Shown: in pieces, positions 7,189 through 41,618 of the stretch | Numbering within the stretch: position 1 is the stretch's first letter | How the letters are laid out: every line of letters begins with the position of its first letter | Origin: a virus | DNA length: 44,839 nucleotides | Direction: 5' to 3' (one strand) | Virus record (IMG/VR): IMGVR_UViG_3300036845_000316 | Location: 1 to 44,839 of that record | Translations under genes and position numbers: made by a program | The notes under the pieces: model-generated | The model's input: only the letters and a program-made list of their open reading frames with translations | What the model was told of the DNA's origin: nothing | Database searches by the model: none

Positions 7189-8517
7189 ACGCGCGTCCTC
7201 ATAATTGAACCCCACGCGGACGGGCTGCTCGACCTCGCGCTGCGGGCGCAAGCCAACGGCCATCATGTGTGGTTTTGGTGCGGCGATTATTCCAAAGATA
7301 AGTGCCCGGTGGGGCGCGGCCTGGTCGAGCGCGTTCTCGACTGGCGTCAGAAGTTCCGTCAGGCCGATCTCGTGCTGCTCGGCTCCAACGGCAAGTTCAT
7401 GCGCGAGATCGACAGCTACAGCGAGCAGTACGGGGTTCCGGTCATCGGCGCGGGTGCCGACGCCGCCAAGCTTGAGCTCGACCGGCTGTTCGGCATGGCG
7501 GCGTTCAAGCGGTGCGGCATCCCCGTGCCGCCATTCCGGCAGTTCTCCAACATCGACCAGGCGCTCGACTACGTGGCAAAGCGCGACGAGGGCGGCGCGG
7601 TCAAGCCGTGCGGCGACGTCACCGACAAGTCGCTGTCGTTTGTCGGCAAGGACGGGCGAGAACTCGCCTGGCGGCTGCAATCGTGGAAGCGCGAGGGCAA
7701 GAAGTTCCCCGACGGTCTCTTGATCCAGGACAGGATCGAGGGTGTCGAGTTCGCGGTCGGGGCGTGGGTGGGTCCGAACGGGTTCTGCCCAGGGTGGGAG
7801 GAGAATTTCGAGGAGAAGAAGCTGTTCGCCGGTCACCTCGGGCCCAACTGCGGCGAGGCCGGTACCGTCATGCGGCTGGTCGACAAGTCAAAGCTGGCGA
7901 GCAAGGTGCTGGCGCCCTGCGAGGATCTGCTGGTGCGGCTGGGATACGTCGGCAATGTTGACGTTAACTGCATCGTGGACAGCGATGGCAACCCGTGGCC
8001 GCTCGAATGGACGGTGCGTTTTGGCTACCCCGCAATCGACATCGAGATGGCGCTGCACGATGGCGATCCCATCGAGTACCTGGCTGGGGTGGCAGAAGGA
8101 AAGCCGCCCAAGACCCGCATCTTGGATCAGATCGCGGTCGGCGTGGTGATGGCGCTGCCGCCCTACCCCTTTGGGCACGAGAAGACCGACGAGGTGGTCG
8201 AGGTGCCGATCTGGGAGGTGACATCGGGGATGATGCGCAAGCTGCACTTCGCGATGGTCGCGGCAGGTGAAGCGCCTTTGATCGAGGGGGGCAAGATCGG
8301 CAAGACACGCAGCCTCGTGACGGCGGGAAGTTACGTGATGGTGGCGACGGGGGTCGGGGATAGCGTCGTCAAGGCGCGCGGTCAGGCGATGCGGCTGCTC
8401 GATCGGGTGCGGATACCGGCGTCGCCGTTCTGGCGGGTGGACATCGGGCAACGGCTCAGAGCGCAGCTGCCAGAGCTTCGGTCGCACGGGTACGCGACGG
8501 GAATGGTCTACGCGTAG
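7189..8517 (+). CDS. ATP-grasp enzyme, PurD-like ligase, probable ACG start
   Basis: About 442 residues resembling phosphoribosylamine-glycine ligase and other carboxylate-amine ligases. Visible are an N-terminal Rossmann-like strand (RVLIIEPHADGLLDLALRA), a central GGAVKP lysine segment, LLIQDRIEGVEFAVGAW with the EG-x-E-F-A motif of ATP-grasp enzymes, and the metal-binding NVDVNCIVD...PWPLEWTVRFGYP. The first ATG (7267) would delete the N-terminal domain. The true N-terminus has ACG at 7189 exactly where Met is expected, five bases after a perfect GGGAGG. Glycinamide or another amide ligation is the family reaction; the phage role (nucleotide supply or virion modification) is unknown. Confidence 0.75.
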   Translation, partial: TRVLIIEPHADGLLDLALRAQANGHHVWFWCGDYSKDKCPVGRGLVERVLDWRQKFRQADLVLLGSNGKFMREIDSYSEQYGVPVIGAGADAAKLELDRLFGMAAFKRCGIPVPPFRQFSNIDQALDYVAKRDEGGAVKPCGDVTDKSLSFVGKDGRELAWRLQSWKREGKKFPDGLLIQDRIEGVEFAVGAWVGPNGFCPGWEENFEEKKLFAGHLGPNCGEAGTVMRLVDKSKLASKVLAPCEDLLVRLGYVGNVDVNCIVDSDGNPWPLEWTVRFGYPAIDIEMALHDGDPIEYLAGVAEGKPPKTRILDQIAVGVVMALPPYPFGHEKTDEVVEVPIWEVTSGMMRKLHFAMVAAGEAPLIEGGKIGKTRSLVTAGSYVMVATGVGDSVVKARGQAMRLLDRVRIPASPFWRVDIGQRLRAQLPELRSHGYATGMVYA

Positions 8518-8544: not shown

Positions 8545-8949
8545 TTACGACAGGTTGATTAGCTTGGCGACGGTCTTCAGAGCCGCGCCCGCGAGGACGT
8601 TGTACGGCGTCATATCACTCCCGGTCGGGTCTTGCAGGTCTTCCACGAACCACTCAACCCGTAGCGTGCTCATTTCAGCGCGGATGGCCTCTCCGACAGC
8701 GTGAAGTATGGCAACGGCGCAGGTAATCTCAACCGGCGCTGCTTCATCGTCCATAGCCTTGTCGGGGCGCGCTTTAAACGTGACATTGTGCCGATCGATT
8801 AGACTGGCAATCTCGTTGGTTACGTCAAATTTCTCGTCGGTAATTATGACAAGACCGTCGCCTTCTTCGCGATAAGCACGGGAGGCATAAAATCTACGGG
8901 TAAGTTCAGAGAAAAAGATGCGGATAGGTTTGGCTTGTCTCTGTGACAT
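8545..8949 (-). CDS. Conserved-type phage hypothetical protein, 134 aa
   Basis: No family recognised. The N-terminal segment (PIRIFFSELTRRFYASRAYR followed by GLVIITDEKFDVT) looks like a small conserved phage domain; the C-terminal half is helical. Start M at 8949 is preferred because it lies five bases after GCAGG in the shared leader; upstream Met codons lack such a site. It is the last gene of the long leftward early block and faces the ATP-grasp gene tail-to-tail over a 27-base gap with no visible terminator hairpin. Confidence 0.75.
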   Translation of the reverse strand: MSQRQAKPIRIFFSELTRRFYASRAYREEGDGLVIITDEKFDVTNEIASLIDRHNVTFKARPDKAMDDEAAPVEITCAVAILHAVGEAIRAEMSTLRVEWFVEDLQDPTGSDMTPYNVLAGAALKTVAKLINLS

Positions 8950-8983
8950 AAAAACCTGCCTCAAGTCAGTTGTTGTGACGCTT
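8950..8983 (-). promoter_or_regulatory. Early leader copy A
   Basis: On the minus strand this intergenic piece reads AACTGACTTGAGG then CAGGTTTTT directly before ATG. It is the most divergent of five copies (also 9380, 9957, 13757, 14154). Confidence 0.5.
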
Positions 8984-9379
8984 TTATGATTTTGGCCGCC
9001 ATTCCTCCATGACCTCATCCTCGTATTCGGCGAGTGAGCAATCCCATTCCCATCGCCGCATGATTGACGGCATGGTTAGCCCAATAGGCTCGACCACAAC
9101 CGGCCGGTATCCGGCACTGCGAATGTCGCTGACCAATTGCTTGAAGATGCCACGGCCCTGTTCCTGGGCATAGATCGCGACTATGCGGATTTCCTTCTTC
9201 GCCTCGTCGATGGAAAGAACGCCGTCATGCCAACTGAATTTCCCAAACGTGATAGGGAACGTTGCCCCCCAGGGGATCACGGAAAATCCCTTCGCCGCCT
9301 CCATGTCCTGCATGTTGCCGATTACGCCGCGAGGGTGAGCGGCAATCTTGGCTAATTCGGCGGCGATATCGATCATCAT
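8984..9379 (-). CDS. GNAT-like hypothetical protein, 131 aa
   Basis: The C-terminal half carries RIVAIYAQEQGRGIFKQLV, compatible with an acetyl-CoA loop (Q-x-x-GRG). It is followed by GYRPVVVEPIG and MPSIMRRWEWD, a pattern seen in short GNAT-like phage proteins; the N-terminal half is less typical. Activity is uncertain because the fold appears minimal. Met-Met start sits after GAGAGGTTT in leader copy B. Neighbours are unknown early proteins. Confidence 0.7.
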   Translation of the reverse strand: MMIDIAAELAKIAAHPRGVIGNMQDMEAAKGFSVIPWGATFPITFGKFSWHDGVLSIDEAKKEIRIVAIYAQEQGRGIFKQLVSDIRSAGYRPVVVEPIGLTMPSIMRRWEWDCSLAEYEDEVMEEWRPKS

Positions 9380-9414: not shown

Positions 9415-9723
9415 TTAGAGCGCCGGCTTTTGATATTGCACTTCGGCATCAGCCATTGCGCGATCTAGAGCGCGCTCAAGCCGAGCCTTGTCGCCCTCAT
9501 GAGCTGGCCCGATGCGGCCAAGGTAGAGGCCGACCGCCCCCACTAACTCGTAGAGCACGCGCGGCATTTCTGGCAACGGATCGTCCCACCACGTTTGCTC
9601 GCGCTTGCCACGCGGGCCGTCACGCATCCCGACGTTGGTTACGCAGTTACAGGGCTTTTTCTTTCCCTCCGCTGGGGCGCCGCAACCTGCGCAGTGCCAG
9701 ATCATAAAATCAGGAACACTCAT
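9415..9723 (-). CDS. Zinc-ribbon-like small protein, 102 aa
   Basis: The N-terminus has a four-cysteine knuckle (WHCAGCGAPAEG then PCNCVTN; C-x2-C...C-x-C), suggesting one structural zinc. The rest is helical with charged residues and no enzyme motif. Its ATG overlaps the upstream stop as ATGA. Nucleic-acid or protein binding is a reasonable guess only. Confidence 0.7.
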   Translation of the reverse strand: MSVPDFMIWHCAGCGAPAEGKKKPCNCVTNVGMRDGPRGKREQTWWDDPLPEMPRVLYELVGAVGLYLGRIGPAHEGDKARLERALDRAMADAEVQYQKPAL

Positions 9724-9956
9724 CTTGCTTTCGCCATCTCCGCCTCGGCTTCAGCACGAGGAAGCCATAGTACCAGTCCAATCTTTTTTGATTTTCCGCC
9801 GGGTAAAAGTTCATGCGGCGAAAGGTTGGCCGGATCAGTGTAAAATGTGATCTTAGTGCCTTGCTTTGTCACATCGACAGCGGACAGATCATTAAGCAAA
9901 ACCTGGAATGCAACATTATCGTCCCCGACCGCAGCAATCAGTTCAGACAGTTTCAT
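9720..9956 (-). CDS. Hypothetical early protein, 78 aa
   Basis: Starts MKLSELIAAVG at 9956, five bases after GGGAGG in leader copy C. A short alpha-beta protein with no recognised motif. It overlaps the next gene by four bases (ATGA), so the pair is probably co-translated. Confidence 0.75.
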   Translation of the reverse strand: MKLSELIAAVGDDNVAFQVLLNDLSAVDVTKQGTKITFYTDPANLSPHELLPGGKSKKIGLVLWLPRAEAEAEMAKAR

Positions 9957-9990
9957 AAAAACCTCCCACAAACGTACTGTTCCGACGTGT
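9957..9990 (-). promoter_or_regulatory. Early leader copy C
   Basis: Minus strand reads AACAGTACGTTTGT then GGGAGGTTTTTATG. With copy E it shares AGTACGTTTGT exactly. It fills the gap between two genes. Confidence 0.65.
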
Positions 9991-10161
9991 TCACTCGCGC
10001 ACCGCTTCCTCTAGGCGCGCTATCTCAGCATCACGTCTCGACAGTGCGCGCAGCAGAAGCGCCACGTCCTTGTGTTCGGTATCGACGATTTGTCGCAACC
10101 GAATTGTCGGGAGATCGTCAAGCGACTCTCTCGGCGACCTCATCCCAATAATCTGCGTCAT
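9991..10161 (-). CDS. Hypothetical early protein, 56 aa
   Basis: Start at 10161 is chosen because AAGGGAG lies seven bases upstream, inside the 3' end of the preceding gene (44-base overlap). The earlier Met at 10197 lacks a site. The C-terminus (LRALSRRDAEIARLEEAV) is a short coiled coil. Function unknown. Confidence 0.65.
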   Translation of the reverse strand: MTQIIGMRSPRESLDDLPTIRLRQIVDTEHKDVALLLRALSRRDAEIARLEEAVRE

Positions 10162-10312
10162 ATTCAAATACTCCCTTTCTCCTGGCGCTTTGGGCAACCC
10201 AAGTTTCGCGCGATGGCTCCCATTTGGCGCACGTCCAGTGGCGCCGCAGCCGCACCGCGTAATATCCAGGAGGAAGGTCCAATACCTTCATCGTAGCGGC
10301 GAGAGACATCAT
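10118..10312 (-). CDS. Hypothetical early protein, 64 aa
   Basis: Trp/Arg-rich small protein (PPGYYAVRLRRHWTCAKWEP). ATG overlaps the upstream stop as ATGA; a second in-frame Met at residue 8 is an alternative start. No family recognised. The overlap chain with both neighbours supports a real gene. Confidence 0.65.
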   Translation of the reverse strand: MMSLAATMKVLDLPPGYYAVRLRRHWTCAKWEPSRETWVAQSARRKGVFEYDADYWDEVAERVA

Positions 10313-10407
10313 TCCCCCGCTTCCTCTAGGGCAGCGCGGCCGGCGCGAAAGATAATCTCGCCGAATGCCTGCTCGGCTTGGGCGTCGGTCTTGCTGTTCT
10401 CGGTCAT
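10309..10407 (-). CDS. Tiny 32-aa hypothetical protein
   Basis: MTENSKTDAQAEQAFGEIIF... is a short acidic helical peptide with GAAGGG ten bases upstream and ATGA coupling to the next gene. It fills an otherwise empty gap in a fully packed operon. Function unknown. Confidence 0.5.
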   Translation of the reverse strand: MTENSKTDAQAEQAFGEIIFRAGRAALEEAGE

Positions 10408-20672: not shown

Positions 20673-21158
20673 TTATGGTGCGAGCAGAAGTGCGTTGGTG
20701 TCCCACCTGAAGCGCGTCGGAAGTGCTTCGAGGTAGGCCCGATCAAGCCCGGCCCATATTCCGCCGAAACTCTCGAAGTCAGCGATGACGCTTAGGGTGG
20801 GTTCGCCCTTGACCAGCATACGATAGGCCGCGATCGCCACACCCGTGCGGTTTTGCCCCGAGACGCAATGCACGAACGTGGGCGGTGCGACGCGCGCCAC
20901 AGTCTCAAGAAAGCGCTTTACATGGCTGTCAGCGATGCCCGGCACAAATGCCGGCAATGGCTCAAAGTCTGGCAGCCGGATCAGCGTGACGCCATCGCTT
21001 GGGACAAACAGGCTGTCGTCGCCTTGTTCCCATTCGAGATCGATGTCGGTAGCCAAGCCCCTCGCCCGCAACCATGCGGCGCCCGCTGTATCTGGTCTAG
21101 CCCCTCGCCAAAGCCGCACATCGACGATCTGAAATCGCTGGATCGGCGCGAAACTCAT
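20673..21158 (-). CDS. Protein-tyrosine/dual-specificity phosphatase-like enzyme
   Basis: 161 residues containing FVHCVSGQNRTGVAIAAYR: the H-C-x5-R phosphate loop with C98 as nucleophile and R104. Upstream acidic residues (LPDFEPLP) could supply the general acid. This is the layout of small cysteine phosphatases that remove phosphate from Tyr/Ser/Thr or other substrates. ATG directly follows the upstream stop, with GAGG before it. Phage examples are uncommon; it may counter host phospho-signalling or process nucleotides or glycans. Confidence 0.75.
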   Translation of the reverse strand: MSFAPIQRFQIVDVRLWRGARPDTAGAAWLRARGLATDIDLEWEQGDDSLFVPSDGVTLIRLPDFEPLPAFVPGIADSHVKRFLETVARVAPPTFVHCVSGQNRTGVAIAAYRMLVKGEPTLSVIADFESFGGIWAGLDRAYLEALPTRFRWDTNALLLAP

Positions 21159-33451: not shown

Positions 33452-34426
33452 TTGCCGAGCGTCCTGTCGTCCAAGCAGATCATCACCCTGGCGCTGCAAG
33501 CCGCGAAGGCCGGTTCGTTTGACCTGAACGGCAACGCGACCGGCTTTGCTTCGCAGGCGGGGCAGCTGTTCAACGCGATCCTCGCGGGCCTCAGCGACGA
33601 CTACGACCTCGACATCACCAAGAAGACCTTCAACTTCACCTTTGTCCCGGCGACGGTTGCCATCGGCAACACCAACGTCTCGCTGGCCTCGGGGCCGTTC
33701 TTCCTGCCGCCCGACTACCTGCGCGCCAAGTTCGGCGACGTCATGTGGTTCAACAACAACTACCCCTATCAGCTTGTCCCGGTCGACCTGGCGGAGTTCG
33801 ACCAGTTCATCCAGCAGGCGGGGTTCCAGAATTTTCCGACGACGTTCGCGACCGATATGTCGCAGTCGCAGATCCTGACGACGACGGCGACCGCCAACGG
33901 CACCACGACCTTGACCGGCCTCGGCAGCACCGCCGGCATCGCGGTGGGACAGGTCGCGGTCTCGACCGGCATCCCCTTCAATACGGTGGTGACACAGGTG
34001 TCGCCGCTGGTGCTGTCAAACGCGGCGACGACCAGCGGCACGATAACCGTGACCTTCCAGAACCCGCCGCTGGCCTATGTCTGGCCGCCGGCGGGCGGCG
34101 CCTATCCGGCGATGGCGCGGTATTACTCGCGGATGCAGCCGATCACGACGCCCGAGTCGAGCGACGTCATCCCGTGGTTTCCCAACACGGACTTCCTGCT
34201 GCGCGAGTTGACCGGGCAATTGATGTTCCTGACCGGCGACGACCGCTGGCAGGCGACGCTCTCGGACAATGCCGATACCAACCCGGGCGGCTCGCGGGTG
34301 ATCCTGACGCGGTATCTGAAGTTGCAGAACGACACCGACAACCGGGCCAAGAAGGTGCAACTCGACGCCCGCCGCTTCGGCTACTGGCGCTCACAGCTGC
34401 CTCCGTCGAAGATCCTCGGCTACTGA
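33452..34426 (+). CDS. Head-tail adaptor, gp11/tail-tubular-A-like
   Basis: 324 residues, TTG start with GGAGG five bases upstream. Has the adaptor pattern: KQIITLALQAAKAGSF, then PPDYLRAKFGDVMWF and FDQFIQQAGFQNFPTTFATD. About residues 143-202 are an inserted beta module (TATANGTTTLTGLGSTAGIA...). The C-terminus (LTGQLMFLTGDDRW, LDARRFGYWRS) completes the tubular fold. It links portal to tail hub, which follows as TGATG. Confidence 0.75.
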   Translation: MPSVLSSKQIITLALQAAKAGSFDLNGNATGFASQAGQLFNAILAGLSDDYDLDITKKTFNFTFVPATVAIGNTNVSLASGPFFLPPDYLRAKFGDVMWFNNNYPYQLVPVDLAEFDQFIQQAGFQNFPTTFATDMSQSQILTTTATANGTTTLTGLGSTAGIAVGQVAVSTGIPFNTVVTQVSPLVLSNAATTSGTITVTFQNPPLAYVWPPAGGAYPAMARYYSRMQPITTPESSDVIPWFPNTDFLLRELTGQLMFLTGDDRWQATLSDNADTNPGGSRVILTRYLKLQNDTDNRAKKVQLDARRFGYWRSQLPPSKILGY

Positions 34427-36306
34427 TGCCCTATCCGCTCCGAGGCGTACCCGTTACGGTCAAGGCAAGAGGTCTGAGCGACACCATTGACTCGACCAAT
34501 CTCGGGCAGGGTCTGATGTCGGCGCTGACCAACCTCATCCCCGCGCCCAACACGCTCGACCTGTGGGTGCCGCGTCCGGCATCCATGCTCCTCACCTCGT
34601 TTGGCGGCTTTACGACCCCGAACATGGGCGAGGCGGTCTTCGGCCAGGGAAACCGCATCTACGGGTTTATCCAGACCGCCCGCTTTGCCGGTCACTCCGA
34701 GCCGTTTATCTGGGATCAGAACGCTTCGGCCTTTGTCGCCATAACCGGCGTCACCTCGGCTAATACCCCGACCTCGACCTCGAACACCGGGGATTGGACG
34801 CCGCCGACGATCTCGCCCAACGGCGCCTTTATCGTATTCACCCACCCCGGGTTTAATTTCTCGGGCGGCTATGCCTTTGGCTGGCTCGACATGACCGGGT
34901 TCACGTCGACCACCATCACCGGCAGCACGCACAGCAACACGACGGTCGATACGTTCTCGACGCCGGTTCTCGCCGCCGGTTGGCGTCCGGGGATGACCAT
35001 CAGCGACAGCGCGGGTGACATCCCGGCCAACACCACCATCCTGTCGATCAGCGCCGCCGGGGTCGTCACCCTCTCGGCCGCCGCGACCGGCTCGAACGCG
35101 GCAACCACCTTTACCGTCGGCGGTGGCACTTTCGCCGCGCCGCTATGGGCTGCCGGCAACATCGTCGACCATCCTCTGCTGGCGGTGCCGACCGCGGCGC
35201 TGCAATACGCCGGCTCGACCTGCTATGCGGTCAACACGACATCGCCGCCCTCCGCCGCGATCGTCTTCTCCGACGCGGGCGATCCGCTGCGCCGCACCGA
35301 TTCGGGCAAGGTGCAGATCACAACCTTTCAGAACGCGCTGCCGATTACCGTGCTGGCGGGCCTGCCGTTCACCAATCTCACGGGCGGCATTGTCCAGAGC
35401 CTCATTGCCTTCCAGGGCGACTCGGCGATCCAGCAGCTGACCGGCACGCCAATCCTCTCGGACCTGCAACAGAATGTGCTGTCGCCCTCGATTGGCACCC
35501 TAGCCCCGAACTCGCTGGCGACGAGCTCGACCAGAGGACTGTACTTTTCCGCGCCCGATGGGGTGAGGCTCATCAATCAGGCGGGCGTCGTCACGCCGCC
35601 GCTCGGGCGACTGGGTTCGGGCGTCACGACCCCGTTCATGTTTGCCCAGAACCCGACAAGGCAAGCCGCGGCGTACAACGAGAGCGTCTACCGCATCAGC
35701 GTGCAGAACGGGGCCAAGGTCGGCGTCCCGACAGAGGAATACTGGTATCACGAGGATGATGACCGCTGGACCGGGCCGCATACCTTCCCGGCGAGCGTCA
35801 TCACCCCGACAGCCGTTCCACACGGATTTGGTTTCTTTGCGGCGGGGATCGCGGCAAAGCTGTGGTCGGGATCATGCTACGCCTCGCTGTCGGCGACCTT
35901 TGTCGAGAACGGCGTGCAGATGACCTTCCTGTGGCAGACCTCGCGGATGCCCGACACGGCGGAAATGCAGGAAAACGCGATGGTGCAGACCGCCATCGCC
36001 ATCGCGGTGCCCGCATTGCAGAACATCCAGGTCACCTTTTACAACGACACGTCGCAGGTTCTCGACCAGCCGCAGCTCGTCGGCCCCGCCAACGCGCCCG
36101 CCGTGTGGGGTTCCTTTGTCTGGGGCGCGGCCAATTGGGGCGCTGGCCTGACGATGTACTACCAGCAGCGGATCAACTGGACACGGGTGCTGATCTTCAA
36201 GCAGGGGACGATGTCGCTGTCGGGGAACTGCGCGGCGGGTCTGGTCATCGGCAACGTCTATATGCGATACCAGCCGCAGAACTACTTGCTTCAGCATGCA
36301 GGATAA
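34426..36306 (+). CDS. Large tail hub / tubular-B-like protein
   Basis: 626 residues. Starts MPYPLRGVPVTVKARGLSDT with IPAPNTLDLWVPRP, as in large podovirus tail-nozzle proteins; many blade-like beta repeats follow. About residues 165-233 hold a beta insert (TGSTHSNTTVDTFSTP ... IPANTTILSISAAGVVTLSA). It probably forms the short-tail nozzle on which fibres sit. TGATG coupled to the adaptor. Confidence 0.75.
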   Translation: MPYPLRGVPVTVKARGLSDTIDSTNLGQGLMSALTNLIPAPNTLDLWVPRPASMLLTSFGGFTTPNMGEAVFGQGNRIYGFIQTARFAGHSEPFIWDQNASAFVAITGVTSANTPTSTSNTGDWTPPTISPNGAFIVFTHPGFNFSGGYAFGWLDMTGFTSTTITGSTHSNTTVDTFSTPVLAAGWRPGMTISDSAGDIPANTTILSISAAGVVTLSAAATGSNAATTFTVGGGTFAAPLWAAGNIVDHPLLAVPTAALQYAGSTCYAVNTTSPPSAAIVFSDAGDPLRRTDSGKVQITTFQNALPITVLAGLPFTNLTGGIVQSLIAFQGDSAIQQLTGTPILSDLQQNVLSPSIGTLAPNSLATSSTRGLYFSAPDGVRLINQAGVVTPPLGRLGSGVTTPFMFAQNPTRQAAAYNESVYRISVQNGAKVGVPTEEYWYHEDDDRWTGPHTFPASVITPTAVPHGFGFFAAGIAAKLWSGSCYASLSATFVENGVQMTFLWQTSRMPDTAEMQENAMVQTAIAIAVPALQNIQVTFYNDTSQVLDQPQLVGPANAPAVWGSFVWGAANWGAGLTMYYQQRINWTRVLIFKQGTMSLSGNCAAGLVIGNVYMRYQPQNYLLQHAG

Positions 36307-36318
36307 GGGCGGAAATAA

Positions 36319-37131
36319 ATGAGTATTATTGCTCCTCTCCCGGACACGCTGACAAACGGCACGACCGCGGACGCCACGCAGGTCATGGCGAACTTTAACC
36401 AGATCGTCGCCAATGTAAACGCCAACGCTGCCGAGAACGGGGCGAACTCAAGCATTACGTCGATACTCGGGTTGACGACGCCGCTTGCGGTCAGCGAGGG
36501 TGGCACCGGGCGCACCGCCAAATACCCAAAGACCCGCACGGTTTTGACCAGCGGAGGTGCCGCCACCTACACGGTGCCGGTGGGGGTGACGGCGATCAAT
36601 GTTCGTGCCATTGGCGGCGGCGGTGCTGGTGGTGGAACGGGGGCGGGGGCTGGGAACGGCGGCGGTGGCGGCAACACGACCTTTGCCGGAACGGGAACAA
36701 GCATCACGGCGGGGTTGGGCTTTGGGGGCGTCGGGGCGGCGGCGGTCAGCGGCAATGGTGGGGCGGCTTCTGGGGGCGACATCAATATCGCCGGCTCGTC
36801 GGGCGACAATGGTGTGGACAATACGACCATCGGCCGCGGCGTCGCCGGGGCGGCGGGCCCTTATGGTGGAGCAGGGGCGGGCGGTGGAGCCAGCGCCAAC
36901 GGTAACACCGGTGCCGCGAACTCGGGCGCGGGAGGCGGCGGGGCAGGAGCCTCGGGCGGCACGGCGCAGGCCGGCGGCGGTGGCTCCGGCGGGTATGTCG
37001 AAAAGCTCATAGCCTCACCTGTTGCCAGCTATACCTACACGGTCGGCGGTGGCGGCACGGCGGGGACCGGGGCAGCCACGGGTGGAGCTGGAGCCGCGGG
37101 GATCATCATCATCGATGAATATTATTACTAG
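36319..37131 (+). CDS. Glycine-rich tail fibre/adhesin, no signal peptide
   Basis: 270 residues: helical N-terminal linker (residues 1-45), a GLTTPLAVSEGGTGRT fibre motif, then a sandwich start (TYTVPVGVTAINVRAIGGGG) and about 170 residues of polyglycine-like loops. Glycine-rich loop domains of this type are receptor-binding tips of phage fibres. Ends overlapping the next gene by 17 bases. Confidence 0.75.
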   Translation: MSIIAPLPDTLTNGTTADATQVMANFNQIVANVNANAAENGANSSITSILGLTTPLAVSEGGTGRTAKYPKTRTVLTSGGAATYTVPVGVTAINVRAIGGGGAGGGTGAGAGNGGGGGNTTFAGTGTSITAGLGFGGVGAAAVSGNGGAASGGDINIAGSSGDNGVDNTTIGRGVAGAAGPYGGAGAGGGASANGNTGAANSGAGGGGAGASGGTAQAGGGGSGGYVEKLIASPVASYTYTVGGGGTAGTGAATGGAGAAGIIIIDEYYY

Positions 37132-37642
37132 ATGCGCCGCCGCCCTGGCGGCAATGGTGTTTTGCGCTCCCGCGATGGCCGGGGGGCCGGGCTCGATCTA
37201 TTGGATCACCGAACCCATGGATTGCGGTGTTGGGTGGGGCGCCCCGATGATCTCGACCTACGTCGCGTACTGCCCGATGGGCGGGGTCTTTGTCTCGATC
37301 TGCCCCGGCGCACCGGCGCCGGGCTTGCCCTACGGCTACTATACCTTCTCAAATGGTCTGTGGGAGGCGGGTGCTCCGGTGACGATTGTGGGCGTTTCCG
37401 CGACGCACGTGCTGAGCAATGCAGCATCGTCGGGACATTTTGTCATCGGCTCGGCGCACAATGCCGATGGGCCGGACGTGTTTGTCACGGGCGGCGGTCA
37501 GGGCACGACGCAGACGACCAAAATCCTTGCCAACCCGTTTCCGCAGGGTGGCGACGCACCAGGCGCTCACATTGACGTCTACGCCCATTGCGACAGTGGC
37601 ACGCACTGGATGCTTCTCGAAATCGACTACGTGCCGCGATGA
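37115..37642 (+). CDS. Secreted beta-sandwich-like protein, 175 aa
   Basis: Start ATG 37115 gives a clear Sec signal peptide (MNIITRCAAALAAMVFCAPA then MAGGPG; cleavage after AMA). Mature part has Cys pairs and repeated G/T/V strands, no known enzyme site. Weak ribosome site; overlaps the fibre gene. First of a series of exported proteins in a tail locus, where virion proteins normally stay cytoplasmic. Confidence 0.65.
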   Translation: MNIITRCAAALAAMVFCAPAMAGGPGSIYWITEPMDCGVGWGAPMISTYVAYCPMGGVFVSICPGAPAPGLPYGYYTFSNGLWEAGAPVTIVGVSATHVLSNAASSGHFVIGSAHNADGPDVFVTGGGQGTTQTTKILANPFPQGGDAPGAHIDVYAHCDSGTHWMLLEIDYVPR

Positions 37643-37708
37643 TGAATGCGGCTATGGCGGAAACGCGCGTTACGGTGTAAAGGGGCTTGACTTGCGAGGG
37701 AGAGCGGG

Positions 37709-38110
37709 ATGAGGGATTTTGTTCGTTCGGCGCTGCGCCGGTTCTTCAGCGGGATGATTGTCGGTGCCGGCATGATCGCCGCGGTGGCGATGGTCCCCTA
37801 CGGGTATGCCGCCTTCCAGACCTTTACGGGTGTCGGCGGGTCGTTCCCGATGGTTGGCCCAACCGCCAATTTTGCCGACTTCAACAACATGATTACCAAC
37901 ATGAACAACGAGGTCGGCAGCTTCCTCCAGTTCGGCGTTGCCGGCGACCCGGGCGAGCCGCAGTTCCTCAACGCCGCCTCGTTTGCGGCCAACGGCACGG
38001 TGGCGACCGCGATGTCGTCGCTCGGCCCCCCGGGTTCGCACACGACGGTTCAGAAATGGCTGCTCGTCATCGATCAGGCCGGCGCGCAGTTTTTTGCTCC
38101 CCTTTTCTGA
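37709..38110 (+). CDS. N-terminally membrane-targeted protein, 133 aa
   Basis: GGGAG precedes ATG. MRDFVRSALRRFFSGMIVGA then a hydrophobic stretch; the RRFF just before it resembles a twin-arginine signal. The remainder is soluble (TFTGVGGSFPMVGPTANFADF...). It ends in a 37-base overlap with the leftward O-antigen-ligase-like gene. Confidence 0.65.
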   Translation: MRDFVRSALRRFFSGMIVGAGMIAAVAMVPYGYAAFQTFTGVGGSFPMVGPTANFADFNNMITNMNNEVGSFLQFGVAGDPGEPQFLNAASFAANGTVATAMSSLGPPGSHTTVQKWLLVIDQAGAQFFAPLF

Positions 38111-38964
38111 CGTGACCGATAGATCTGCGGCGGAACCTGAGCCAGTTCCGCCAGCAGCGTCACCAGCGGCAAATACACGACCCACGTCCCGTACAGAAAC
38201 ATCCCCTGCACCGCGAACGCCGCCAGAAACCCAAGAGCGGCGCGGTCTCTCCGGGCTGCCCGCACGCCCTCGCCATAGACCCATAGGGCCGCGCTAAGCC
38301 CAATTACACCAGCCGCCGCGAGCCACTCGATCGCGATATTGTAGAAGACGGTCAGGCCGGTATATCCGGCCATGAGACCGCCCTGCCCCCAGCCGAGCCA
38401 CGGGCGGGCAAGGGCACCGTAAAACCCGATCCGCCACAGGCCGAGACGCGGATCGTCGGTGCCGCGGTGCAGCGTTGCAACGACAACAAAATTGATGCAG
38501 ATCAATAATCCGAGGACGACAACCCACGGGAACCGTCGCCACAGCATGATGACGCCGGATACGGCGGCGGCGGCGAAGGCTCCCCGGCTTTGCGCCAGTG
38601 TGAGCGAGATCACATTGGCGATGAGCGGGACGATCGCTACCCAGCGCGGGGATTTGTCGATGCGGCGCATCGCAAGGCAGAGATTGAGCGCCGCGTAGGA
38701 GCCGAGGAAGTTGGCGCTGAGAAAGACCCCGTGCGCGCGCTTCATAAAGAACATCTGGATAACGGAGATTGCCGCGACCGGCACGCTCAGCCAGAGCCAG
38801 TTGATCCATATCAAGTCCCATTGGCGGGGCTCGAAATGCGACCAGCAGGTGAGAAACCACAGCGTTGCGCAAATGATCCAGAGGTAGCCGTGCCCCCAAC
38901 CGTGGAGATCGGCGACGCCGACGATGGCGACAAACACCAGAAAGGAAATGACGAGGCGCGGCAT
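38074..38964 (-). CDS. Degenerate O-antigen ligase/polymerase-like membrane protein
   Basis: 296 residues, about eight TM helices. Wzy_C/WaaL family features: GVFLSANFLGSYAAL (about 79-93), the signature LAQSRGAF (about 123-130), RIGFYGALARPWLGWGQGG, and FYNIAIEWLAAAGVIGL. In the last motif family enzymes usually have His before Asn (H-N-x-x-L); here it is Tyr (Tyr208). It is also shorter than typical (usually about 400 aa). Start at 38964 is preferred because upstream Met codons overlap a good rightward gene. A lone leftward gene in the tail locus is a moron. Likely effect: alteration or inhibition of host surface polysaccharide assembly. Confidence 0.7.
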   Translation of the reverse strand: MPRLVISFLVFVAIVGVADLHGWGHGYLWIICATLWFLTCWSHFEPRQWDLIWINWLWLSVPVAAISVIQMFFMKRAHGVFLSANFLGSYAALNLCLAMRRIDKSPRWVAIVPLIANVISLTLAQSRGAFAAAAVSGVIMLWRRFPWVVVLGLLICINFVVVATLHRGTDDPRLGLWRIGFYGALARPWLGWGQGGLMAGYTGLTVFYNIAIEWLAAAGVIGLSAALWVYGEGVRAARRDRAALGFLAAFAVQGMFLYGTWVVYLPLVTLLAELAQVPPQIYRSRQKRGAKNCAPA

Positions 38965-39001
38965 TGGTGTTATCTCGCAAAGGGCGTTCGGGGAGTATGC
39001 C

Positions 39002-39217
39002 ATGAACTTGAGCCAGAAGACGGTTTTCGATGCAAAGGTTCGCGAACTCGCGATGAGCCGTGTCGGCCCCGCACCGCCGAACAGCTTCATATACGGCGCG
39101 TATGAAATGGCGCTCCGTCGCGAGATGGACATCTGCCGCGCGGAACTGAGGGGCGTCGAATTTATGTCGGATTACGACCCCAGGCTTCGCTCGGTCGGGG
39201 GGGCCGATGGAGGGTAA
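39002..39217 (+). CDS. Hypothetical protein, 71 aa
   Basis: MNLSQKTVFDAKVRELAMSR...; GGGGAG six bases before ATG. Helical then acidic. It lies just upstream of, and divergent from, the ligase-like gene start, so promoters may be shared. Overlaps the next gene by 11 bases. Confidence 0.7.
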   Translation: MNLSQKTVFDAKVRELAMSRVGPAPPNSFIYGAYEMALRREMDICRAELRGVEFMSDYDPRLRSVGGADGG

Positions 39218-39356
39218 GAGCAAAGTCCGCAAGGTGCTTCACGAGTTCAAGGAAGGCTCGCTGCATAGCGGCTCCAAGAGCGGTCCCAAGGTGCGCAACA
39301 GAAAGCAGGCGGTGGCAATTGCTCTGTCAGAGGCACGGAAAAAGAGGGCGCGCTGA
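39207..39356 (+). CDS. DUF6496-type small basic protein, 49 aa
   Basis: MEGKSKVRKVLHEFKEGSLH then SGSKSGPKV..RKQAVAIALSEA: the clear pattern of the small DUF6496 family (VMHEFKxGxLxSGSxxGPKVxxRxQAIAIALSEA), widespread in phages and bacteria. Function unknown; very basic, DNA-binding or packaged-protein role possible. Stop overlaps next ATG (TGATG). Confidence 0.85.
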   Translation: MEGKSKVRKVLHEFKEGSLHSGSKSGPKVRNRKQAVAIALSEARKKRAR

Positions 39357-39703
39357 TGCTGAAAATTCTCACGGCTTTTGTGTTGGGCGCGCTGGTCTTG
39401 TCGGCCCCGGCGCTCGCGGGCGCTCCGTCGCCTTGCGGCGGGACGGTCGGGACGGGCTCGGCGCTGGTCGTCTTCCCGGCGTCCGGGCATGGCCCATCCA
39501 AACCCACGCAATACGTAACGATCTCCAACCCTGGAACGAATACCCTCTACGTCAACGGGCATGGCAGCACCGCAACCTCCAGCGATATGCCGCTGTTGAC
39601 GGGCGGATACATAACCTGGGCCTTTCCCGCGTATCCGCCGCCCGCTGTCATCTCAATCATAGCCTCGGGATCTTCGTCGCCTTACGCATGTGAATACCAA
39701 TGA
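39356..39703 (+). CDS. Signal-peptide-bearing small beta protein, 115 aa
   Basis: Signal peptide MLKILTAFVLGALVLSAPAL, cleavage near ALA-GAP. Mature part: PSPCGGTVGTGSALVVFPAS, TQYVTISNPGTNTLYVNGHG, a beta-sandwich-like pattern seen in fibre accessory domains. ATGA overlap with the next gene. Confidence 0.7.
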   Translation: MLKILTAFVLGALVLSAPALAGAPSPCGGTVGTGSALVVFPASGHGPSKPTQYVTISNPGTNTLYVNGHGSTATSSDMPLLTGGYITWAFPAYPPPAVISIIASGSSSPYACEYQ

Positions 39704-40584
39704 GACTTCTCTCATGCGCGCTAGTGGCGCTGGCTCTGATCTCGGGGAGCGCCCATGCGCAGCAGGGGTGGAACCCGGGTGGGGGCGGCGGCGGCGGATC
39801 AGGCACCGTTACCAGCGTCGGCCTTAATCCTGGGCTGACAAAAACCATTGGCACCCAGAATACCGGTTCCGACGCGATCACAACGACCGGCACGATATCG
39901 GGTCAAACATGGCCTGTCCTTGTCGCAGGCTCCTGCACGGTCAACACCAACTGCAACGGCGGCAACACCAACGAGACCGGCGAGTTGCTGATCGCCAATG
40001 CCGCCAGCATCACATTCACGCTTCCTAATCCCGCAGCTGGGACCGAGGGCAGCAGTTATTTTTTCGGCAGTGACGGGACCAACGGCTACACGCTGACAAC
40101 GGCGGGCGGTGCCAAGACCCTGTATGGCTGCCCGCAGGGCGGCGGCACGTCACTCGTTGTCCAGGCCGATTTCGATGTGGTCGTGACCGACGACGGGACG
40201 AACTATAAATGCACGCTGGCAGGCAGCCCGGTCATCCCGCTTCCAATTACCTATGCGCCCGGGATCAATCCCAATAATCTGCCGATCGCCAATATCAACC
40301 AGCCGCGAACGATCGTCGGCATTCGATGCAATCCCGAAGTTGCGGCGGGTGGGTCGGCGACGATCACGTTTGTCAAGGCCGCGAGCGGCACGGCTCTCAG
40401 CGCGGGCACAGCGCTTCATAGTGGAAGCTGCAACGCCAACGGCACCGCGGCGACGGATCAGACCCTCACTGTGACCGTGACGACCCTGGCGGCCGGTGAT
40501 CGCCTAGGCATCACGACAACCGGCACGACGATCTGGACATCAAGCGGCATCGCGGCAGGCGTAGGCACGGTGTTCGTCCGGTGA
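39700..40584 (+). CDS. Tail-fibre-like protein with signal peptide, 294 aa
   Basis: MRLLSCALVALALISGSAHA signal, then Gly-rich linker and GSGTVTSVGLNPGLTKTIGT, a typical phage fibre motif (GTVTSVGL). Further beta repeats (ASITFTLPNPAAGTEGSS) run to the C-terminus. It couples as ATGA upstream and GTGA downstream. Export of a fibre-like protein is unexpected. Confidence 0.75.
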   Translation: MRLLSCALVALALISGSAHAQQGWNPGGGGGGGSGTVTSVGLNPGLTKTIGTQNTGSDAITTTGTISGQTWPVLVAGSCTVNTNCNGGNTNETGELLIANAASITFTLPNPAAGTEGSSYFFGSDGTNGYTLTTAGGAKTLYGCPQGGGTSLVVQADFDVVVTDDGTNYKCTLAGSPVIPLPITYAPGINPNNLPIANINQPRTIVGIRCNPEVAAGGSATITFVKAASGTALSAGTALHSGSCNANGTAATDQTLTVTVTTLAAGDRLGITTTGTTIWTSSGIAAGVGTVFVR

Positions 40585-41618
40585 TTCTCGCGCGGCTTCT
40601 CTTTGCGCTCGGCCTTGTTCTCGCCGCCGTCAACCATGCGCCCGCCAATCTCATTCAGGCCGGGACAAGTGCGGGTGGCTGTGCCGCATCGCCAACGCTC
40701 GTCACCGCCACGGGCAACGGTGTCTACACGATGCCGGCAGCGTGCAATCATCTCACAATTCGGGCAATTGCCGGGGGCGGCGGCGGTGCGACAGCGACGG
40801 CGGCAATTGCCGGGGGCGGCGGCGGTAGCGGCGAGTTCCGTGAACAAGACACCGTCTCGATCTCCGCTGGCACGAACGTCAATTATTCAAATGGAGCTGG
40901 CGGCGGCATCTCTGCGGCAGGCACCAAGAGTTGTGTTGGTGGCTCGGGAGCTGATGGCTGCTCCAGCCCAACCGTTCAAGCGAATGGGGGCGCAGGTAGT
41001 GCTGCGAACACCGGTGTCGGCGGGGCTGGTGGCACTGGAGGCACGGGATCGAGTGCCAGCAACGATGGTGGCGCTGGAGGGACTTGTGGCGGCAGTAGCG
41101 GCGTTGGAGCCTGCGGCGGAGCCGGAGCCGGTGGGCCTGATGGCGTGGGCAAGGCGGGGGGCAGTTCAAACGCTGCCGGAAATTCTGCGGGTGCCGGAGG
41201 TGGTGGCTCTGACGGTGGAACGGCGGGCGGCACCCCCAACGCCGCCATTACGAGCGGCGTTGGGGGTAATAACTTCGCCGGAACTGGTGGTGCCGCCGGA
41301 GTCGCGCAAGATACGCCGGGCATCAATGGAACGAATGGCGGCGGCGGTTCAGGTGGTGGCGCTGAGATTGCAAGCACGACCGGACTGATGGTCGGAGGCA
41401 ACGGCTCGCTTGGTGCGATAGCTGCTTTTGGTGGATCAGCCGGCCCTGGTGGCGGCGGCGGCGGGGGCGGGGGAGTCAACGGCCCGGGAACAGGTGCCGC
41501 TGGGGGCATCGGTGGCGGCTGTGGTGGTGGTGGTGGTGGTGGTGCTTTTGGCGTCACAGCAAAGGGCGCCGGTGGGGTTGGCGGCGCTGGTTGCCTTTAT
41601 CTGGTTCCATCGACTTAG
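40581..41618 (+). CDS. Exported glycine-rich fibre protein, 345 aa
   Basis: GTG start. Signal peptide MILARLLFALGLVLAAVNHA. Then TLVTATGNGVYTMPAACNHL, a sandwich start like that in the 36319 fibre, followed by about 250 residues of polyglycine-like loops. A 25-bp repeat at 40763 and 40802 duplicates 13 residues. Probably a paralogue of the 36319 fibre with an added export signal. Confidence 0.75.
   Translation: MILARLLFALGLVLAAVNHAPANLIQAGTSAGGCAASPTLVTATGNGVYTMPAACNHLTIRAIAGGGGGATATAAIAGGGGGSGEFREQDTVSISAGTNVNYSNGAGGGISAAGTKSCVGGSGADGCSSPTVQANGGAGSAANTGVGGAGGTGGTGSSASNDGGAGGTCGGSSGVGACGGAGAGGPDGVGKAGGSSNAAGNSAGAGGGGSDGGTAGGTPNAAITSGVGGNNFAGTGGAAGVAQDTPGINGTNGGGGSGGGAEIASTTGLMVGGNGSLGAIAAFGGSAGPGGGGGGGGGVNGPGTGAAGGIGGGCGGGGGGGAFGVTAKGAGGVGGAGCLYLVPST

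Follow-up and report, generated by a model that had tools for sequence, protein, structure and literature searches.

The window, which is the whole 44,839-nucleotide stretch analysed here (IMG/VR virus record IMGVR_UViG_3300036845_000316), encodes at 38074-38964 a membrane protein that is related to Wzy_C proteins (O-antigen ligase or inverting Wzy polymerase), in which the catalytic His of the HX10G motif is replaced by Tyr. The replacement dates far back and is conserved across a small phage family, and the likeliest role of the protein is changing the host surface polysaccharide during infection. Phage wzy genes are active polymerases in temperate serotype-converting phages. The His-to-Tyr subfamily, found in phages with no detected integrase, may represent either a pseudoenzyme that inhibits surface-glycan assembly or an inverting GT-C enzyme that uses a base not described before, and either outcome would help to define the job of the HX10G residue.

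Wzy_C (PF04932) was the sole Pfam family found for the window protein, with a match under the cut-off (E 0.003, or 3.6e-5 when the search was limited to the window; 17.7-18.9 bits against a gathering cut-off of 31.7 bits). Five of the six family members matched Wzy_C (best E 1.8e-5), and two sister members reached the gathering score when neighbouring in-frame segments were included (G002, 32.8 bits; G064, 31.7 bits). Alignment of the family with bacterial Wzy_C domains by hhalign gave an E-value of 2.7e-9, or 6.3e-12 with the Wzy-beta of phage D3 as master. None of 20 block-shuffled controls did better than 2.7e-5, and reversed alignments gave 0.13-0.19; the profile-profile homology to PF04932 thus exceeds the composition controls. 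The first-pass annotation, made from the letters alone, had read this minus-strand ORF as a short phage homologue of Wzy_C/WaaL carrying the SRGA and R...G-G-G signatures, and this description is borne out by the profile matches and by QSRGA (R127), an Arg (R173) before GWGQGG and YX10G (Y208...G219) in the translation. The protein is indeed short, at 296 aa versus 386 aa for D3 Wzy-beta, yet hydropathy and a rough AlphaFold model (pLDDT 57) suggest about 10 membrane helices, roughly as many as in D3 Wzy-beta; roughly 10-12 helices and a large outer loop ahead of the HX10G helix are expected for Wzy_C. The AlphaFold models, built with 6 and 7 sequences in the alignment, had pLDDT values of 57 and 52, respectively. 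A PDB structure search with the first of them returned only noise, the PDB sequence search matched no solved structure, and searches of NCBIfam and PHROGs gave nothing and no meaningful family, respectively.

Bacterial domains read R...PLxGxGxG...HNX9G in the motif region, and the window protein reads R173...PWLGWGQGG...FY208NIAIEWLAAAG219. Y208 was aligned with the motif His when the template was an HX10G protein; with D3 Wzy-beta (HX9G) as template, the aligner inserted a gap and shifted the position by one, to F207. Neither residue beside Y208/F207 is H, D or E, and a one-residue shift therefore brings no candidate base. The replacement of the motif His by Tyr, originally noticed in the window protein, holds and is more general than stated: all six family members have Tyr, encoded by TAC, where inverting GT-C1 enzymes have the HX10G His (or Asp/Glu). 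In a census of 65 bacterial Wzy_C domains, picked across the score range within one phylum, this position was H in 57, D in four, E in four and Y in none, and the phages D3 (IHNI), epsilon15 (VHNL) and VarioGold (AHNI) have His. The surroundings of the motif are conserved, with N or S after the motif position in the family and in 56/65 bacterial domains, and Gly 11 residues past it in the family and in 65/65 bacterial domains.

All five full-length members keep R127 and R173, which align with conserved Args and are taken as the equivalents of the two diphosphate-binding ones. In D3 Wzy-beta, R254, R270, R272 and H300 are all needed, and H300R fails to restore function (PMC4815439). Judged from the alignment, the donor-binding side of the phage protein looks kept while the usual base is missing. 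Other residues invariant in the five full-length members are D19, H25, R47, R76, R143, R167 and R235, of which D19 and H25 lie in the predicted first outer loop, and positions 170, 171 and 213 are acidic in every full-length member. Acidity at position 213 is not special, because it also occurs in 14/65 bacterial domains, that is, in ordinary enzymes of the family. A base to replace His could come from D19 and H25 or from the acidic residues at 170, 171 and 213.

Table 1. Features of the Wzy_C-like locus in the window
Feature	Position	Strand	Remarks
Tail-region structural protein	34426..36306	(+)	Query for finding related phages
Glycine-rich tail-fibre-like protein	36319..37131	(+)	PHROG 863
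133-aa protein with N-terminal hydrophobic segment	37709..38110	(+)	Convergent with the Wzy_C-like gene; 37-base overlap at its 3' end
Wzy_C/WaaL-like multi-helix membrane protein	38074..38964	(-)	296 aa from ATG; stop codon within coordinates
Tyr208 codon (TAC) at the HX10G catalytic-His position	38341..38343	(-)	From reading frame
Arg173 codon, second diphosphate-binding Arg equivalent (R270 of D3 Wzy-beta)	38446..38448	(-)	Invariant, aligned
Arg127 codon of QSRGA, probable first diphosphate-binding Arg equivalent	38584..38586	(-)	Aligned with D3 GARSEF
71-aa ORF	39002..39217	(+)	Divergent; its start lies 37 bases from that of the Wzy_C-like gene
DUF6496 protein, 49 aa	39207..39356	(+)	Divergent conserved neighbour; one of three sequences in profile

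The gene lies on the minus strand inside the plus-strand structural module, 3' of the tail proteins (Table 1), and it is antisense to tail genes throughout the family. Small proteins similar to the convergent 133-aa protein occur at the same place and orientation in L002, L029, L088 and L090. In the relatives L001, L029, L088 and L090, the gene adjoins a DUF6496 gene, as it does in every locus that can be read on that side (15861-16067 in L029, which matches PF20106 at 4.4e-16; 5721-5930 in L088; 5718-6143 in L090). A single other DUF6496 copy was found among 80 tail loci, in the 4.8-kb fragment L014, and a functional link between DUF6496 and the Wzy_C-like gene is possible.

The parallel with phage D3 that had been drawn at the outset extends to gene order. 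D3 itself has a Wzy_C polymerase gene, wzy-beta, antisense to its late genes, directly after a tail gene and close to iap and the O-acetylase gene. An O-antigen ligase family gene is likewise antisense between the tailspike and lysis genes of epsilon15, adjoining a polymerase inhibitor gene, and antisense to the lysis cluster of VarioGold (PMC9658991). Because LPS-conversion genes of D3, epsilon15 and VarioGold have this antisense layout, it supports a surface-conversion role. D3 Wzy-beta (O-antigen beta polymerase, NP_061525) shares with the window protein the Wzy_C domain, the multi-helix membrane character, the equivalents of R127 and R173 and the Gly of HX9-10G; it differs in having the catalytic H300 and in belonging to a temperate phage and acting in lysogens. 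The epsilon15 and VarioGold proteins differ by the motif His, both phages encode an integrase, and the separate inhibitor gene of epsilon15 is a further difference. The O-antigen ligase WaaL (CAZy GT121; PDB 7TPG/7TPJ) shares the diphosphate-binding Args and the overall order of motifs, whereas its acceptor-activating residue is His-313 and the phage family, which has no sequence match to solved structures, has Tyr.

The reading that we tentatively favour is a substrate-binding pseudoenzyme; the first-pass suggestion of a catalytically dead, dominant inhibitor is thus plausible. As a member of the Wzy_C kind (WaaL/inverting Wzy, GT-C1), the phage membrane protein would act on lipid-linked surface-polysaccharide precursors of the host, presumably an LPS-bearing cell. 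With the Args that hold undecaprenyl diphosphate kept and the acceptor-activating base lost, it would most likely occupy the lipid-linked O-unit, or the polymerase/ligase complex of the host, and carry out no catalysis. The O-antigen or another surface glycan would then become shorter or thinner, and the infected cell and its debris would stop capturing further phages. Such interference is supported by the combination of retained lipid-diphosphate Args and lost base, and by the inactivity of the H300R form of D3 Wzy-beta (PMC4815439). One phage product, Iap of D3, is already known to stop the host from polymerising its O-antigen; this inhibitor, however, is a 31-aa Wzz-mimicking peptide and not a dead polymerase (PMC12004945), and it is unrelated to the Wzy_C-like protein in sequence and size. 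In the literature searched, with most subscription journals outside it, no Wzy_C protein is documented as a dominant inhibitor. The pseudoenzyme is not rated higher mainly because Tyr and D19/H25 are invariant. With some more reserve, we put forward the wider possibility that phages which seem not to integrate use a conserved family of inactive O-antigen ligase/polymerase homologues to block, with a single gene, the assembly of host surface glycans during infection, for superinfection exclusion or to shield progeny from debris.

An active enzyme whose base is unusual or has moved elsewhere comes close to the pseudoenzyme in likelihood, though it is still doubtful in itself. Such a glycan polymerase or ligase would remake the O-antigen linkage as the Wzy-beta proteins of D3 and epsilon15 do, the position of its gene resembles that of these active phage genes, and its base could be (i) Tyr208 itself; (ii) D19 or H25 in the first outer loop; or (iii) one of the acidic residues at 170, 171 and 213. 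D19 and H25 are invariant, and so is the Tyr over 35-80% identity, unlike a merely degenerate site, since a dead site usually drifts; a chemical role for the Tyr is therefore possible. The inverting Wzy polymerases of clan GT-C1 (such as GT125, GT126 and GT127) share the conserved Args, and their base position is not always His. According to the part of PMC10920833 drawn on here, the clan uses H, D or E at the site, with Asp in SEDS enzymes and Asp or Glu in most inverting polymerases, the likely catalytic acid (Glu) of GT127 lies elsewhere than the usual site, and the retaining clan GT-C2 has a conserved Arg/Lys and Tyr; Tyr at the GT-C1 site is not reported in that part. On the other hand, Tyr is a poor general base, and acidity at 213 is also common in ordinary family enzymes. 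The active enzyme is not rated higher chiefly because D3 Wzy-beta loses function with the substituted base H300R and because Tyr is absent from the census of bacterial domains, which covers one phylum.

Both ends of the window carry an exact 127-base repeat, so that the assembly is most likely circular and complete. Among its products are a large terminase, a head-tail adaptor, a major head protein, Erf and RecE-like recombination proteins and a primase/helicase-type ATPase. No tyrosine integrase (PF00589) or serine resolvase (PF00239) was matched in the five family-carrying records scanned (G000, G002, G003, G063 and G064), two of which look complete by terminal repeats; these records include the window and three relatives of 45-47 kb, one of which carries a 60-bp terminal repeat. 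The PF01381 repressor domain was also absent from the window, with other repressor families and plasmid-like prophages outside the scope of the scan. Should the phages be virulent, the protein would have to do its work during the infection itself. These absences argue against a lysogenic (moron) conversion gene, expressed by the prophage as in D3, which we consider rather unlikely even though the antisense position beside the tail/lysis module is moron-like and the more distant relatives L057 and L058 have integrases. Lysogenic conversion concerns the timing of gene action, and its probability therefore overlaps with those of the enzyme and the inhibitor.

A membrane protein unrelated to O-antigen, binding lipid II/Und-PP to help lysis or serving in the virion or its assembly, is improbable. 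Such a role would suit a gene that sits in the tail region, next to DUF6496 and to a small protein that looks exported, in phages where no integrase was detected; the SEDS enzymes, which polymerise lipid II, are also members of this clan (PMC10920833). However, the gene lies on the strand opposite the late genes, which lysis and virion genes do not, its product has the full Wzy_C signature apart from the His, and the known phage Wzy_C genes at this position are LPS-conversion genes.

ORF length is no evidence of a real gene here, because the window has 63% GC and many long spurious antisense ORFs; the Wzy_C-like gene is regarded as real because of homology and selection. Homologues were found in L001, L002 (a fragment), L029, L088/L089 and L090, making six distinct sequences including the window (L088 and L089 differ by one base over 12.9 kb), with 35-44% identity to the window protein and up to 80% among the other members. 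Pairwise dN/dS was 0.22-0.58, with dS near saturation in pairs including the window, and the gene is under purifying selection. A chance antisense ORF, or a His-to-Tyr change by sequencing error, can be dismissed, since, for all the spurious ORFs of the window and the weak Pfam score of its member, six distinct homologues share the same Tyr and the same locus, dN/dS is below 1 and the profile matches are significant. Upstream of the ATG at 38964 the frame remains open as far as 39171, but in all four relatives whose 5' end is complete the start codon corresponds to 38964, which makes the 296-aa form the right one; a longer N-terminus from 39132 was rejected for this reason and for its overlap with the plus-strand ORF at 39002-39217. 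A minus-strand sigma-70 promoter match was not found within 37600-39500.

Among the 80 loci that the tail-protein search recovered, the gene occurs only in L022 and L024 (the contigs of L001 and L002) and in L029, and none of seven other related records, each scanned whole, has a Wzy_C match; it is therefore an accessory gene of a subgroup. No relatives were found in 50,697 phage records and 72,556 plasmids, and the genome_contigs search gave only one cellular match (L003), which is distant (27%) and has the normal His.

Several further features of these genomes were recorded. In L001, a methyltransferase-like protein (8806-9339, minus strand; a weak Pfam match under the cut-off) and an apparent glycosyltransferase recognised by eye (9650-10393, minus strand) lie beside the Wzy_C-like gene, which again hints that this phage has a surface-glycan locus. 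Just past the Wzy_C-like gene, on the structural strand, L088 (7163-8023, minus strand; without a Pfam match) and L090 (7157-8095, minus strand) encode a second multi-helix membrane protein, the two copies sharing the stretch HYIWLxWHLGRQNFGLYALVAGGAS. The Wzy_C-like frame of L029 (14665-15870) runs on for about 115 codons after the point where the conserved part ends, opposite a 109-aa gene on the other strand, and represents either a genuine C-terminal extension or a chance read-through. In the window, the tail-region ORFs at 36319-37131 and 40581-41618 are strongly glycine-rich, a phosphoribosylglycinamide synthetase-like protein (GARS ATP-grasp and C domains, just under the Pfam cut-offs) is encoded on the structural strand at 7267-8514, and a dual-specificity/tyrosine phosphatase-like protein (PTP-NADK family match, 1.9e-12) lies among minus-strand genes at 20673-21158.
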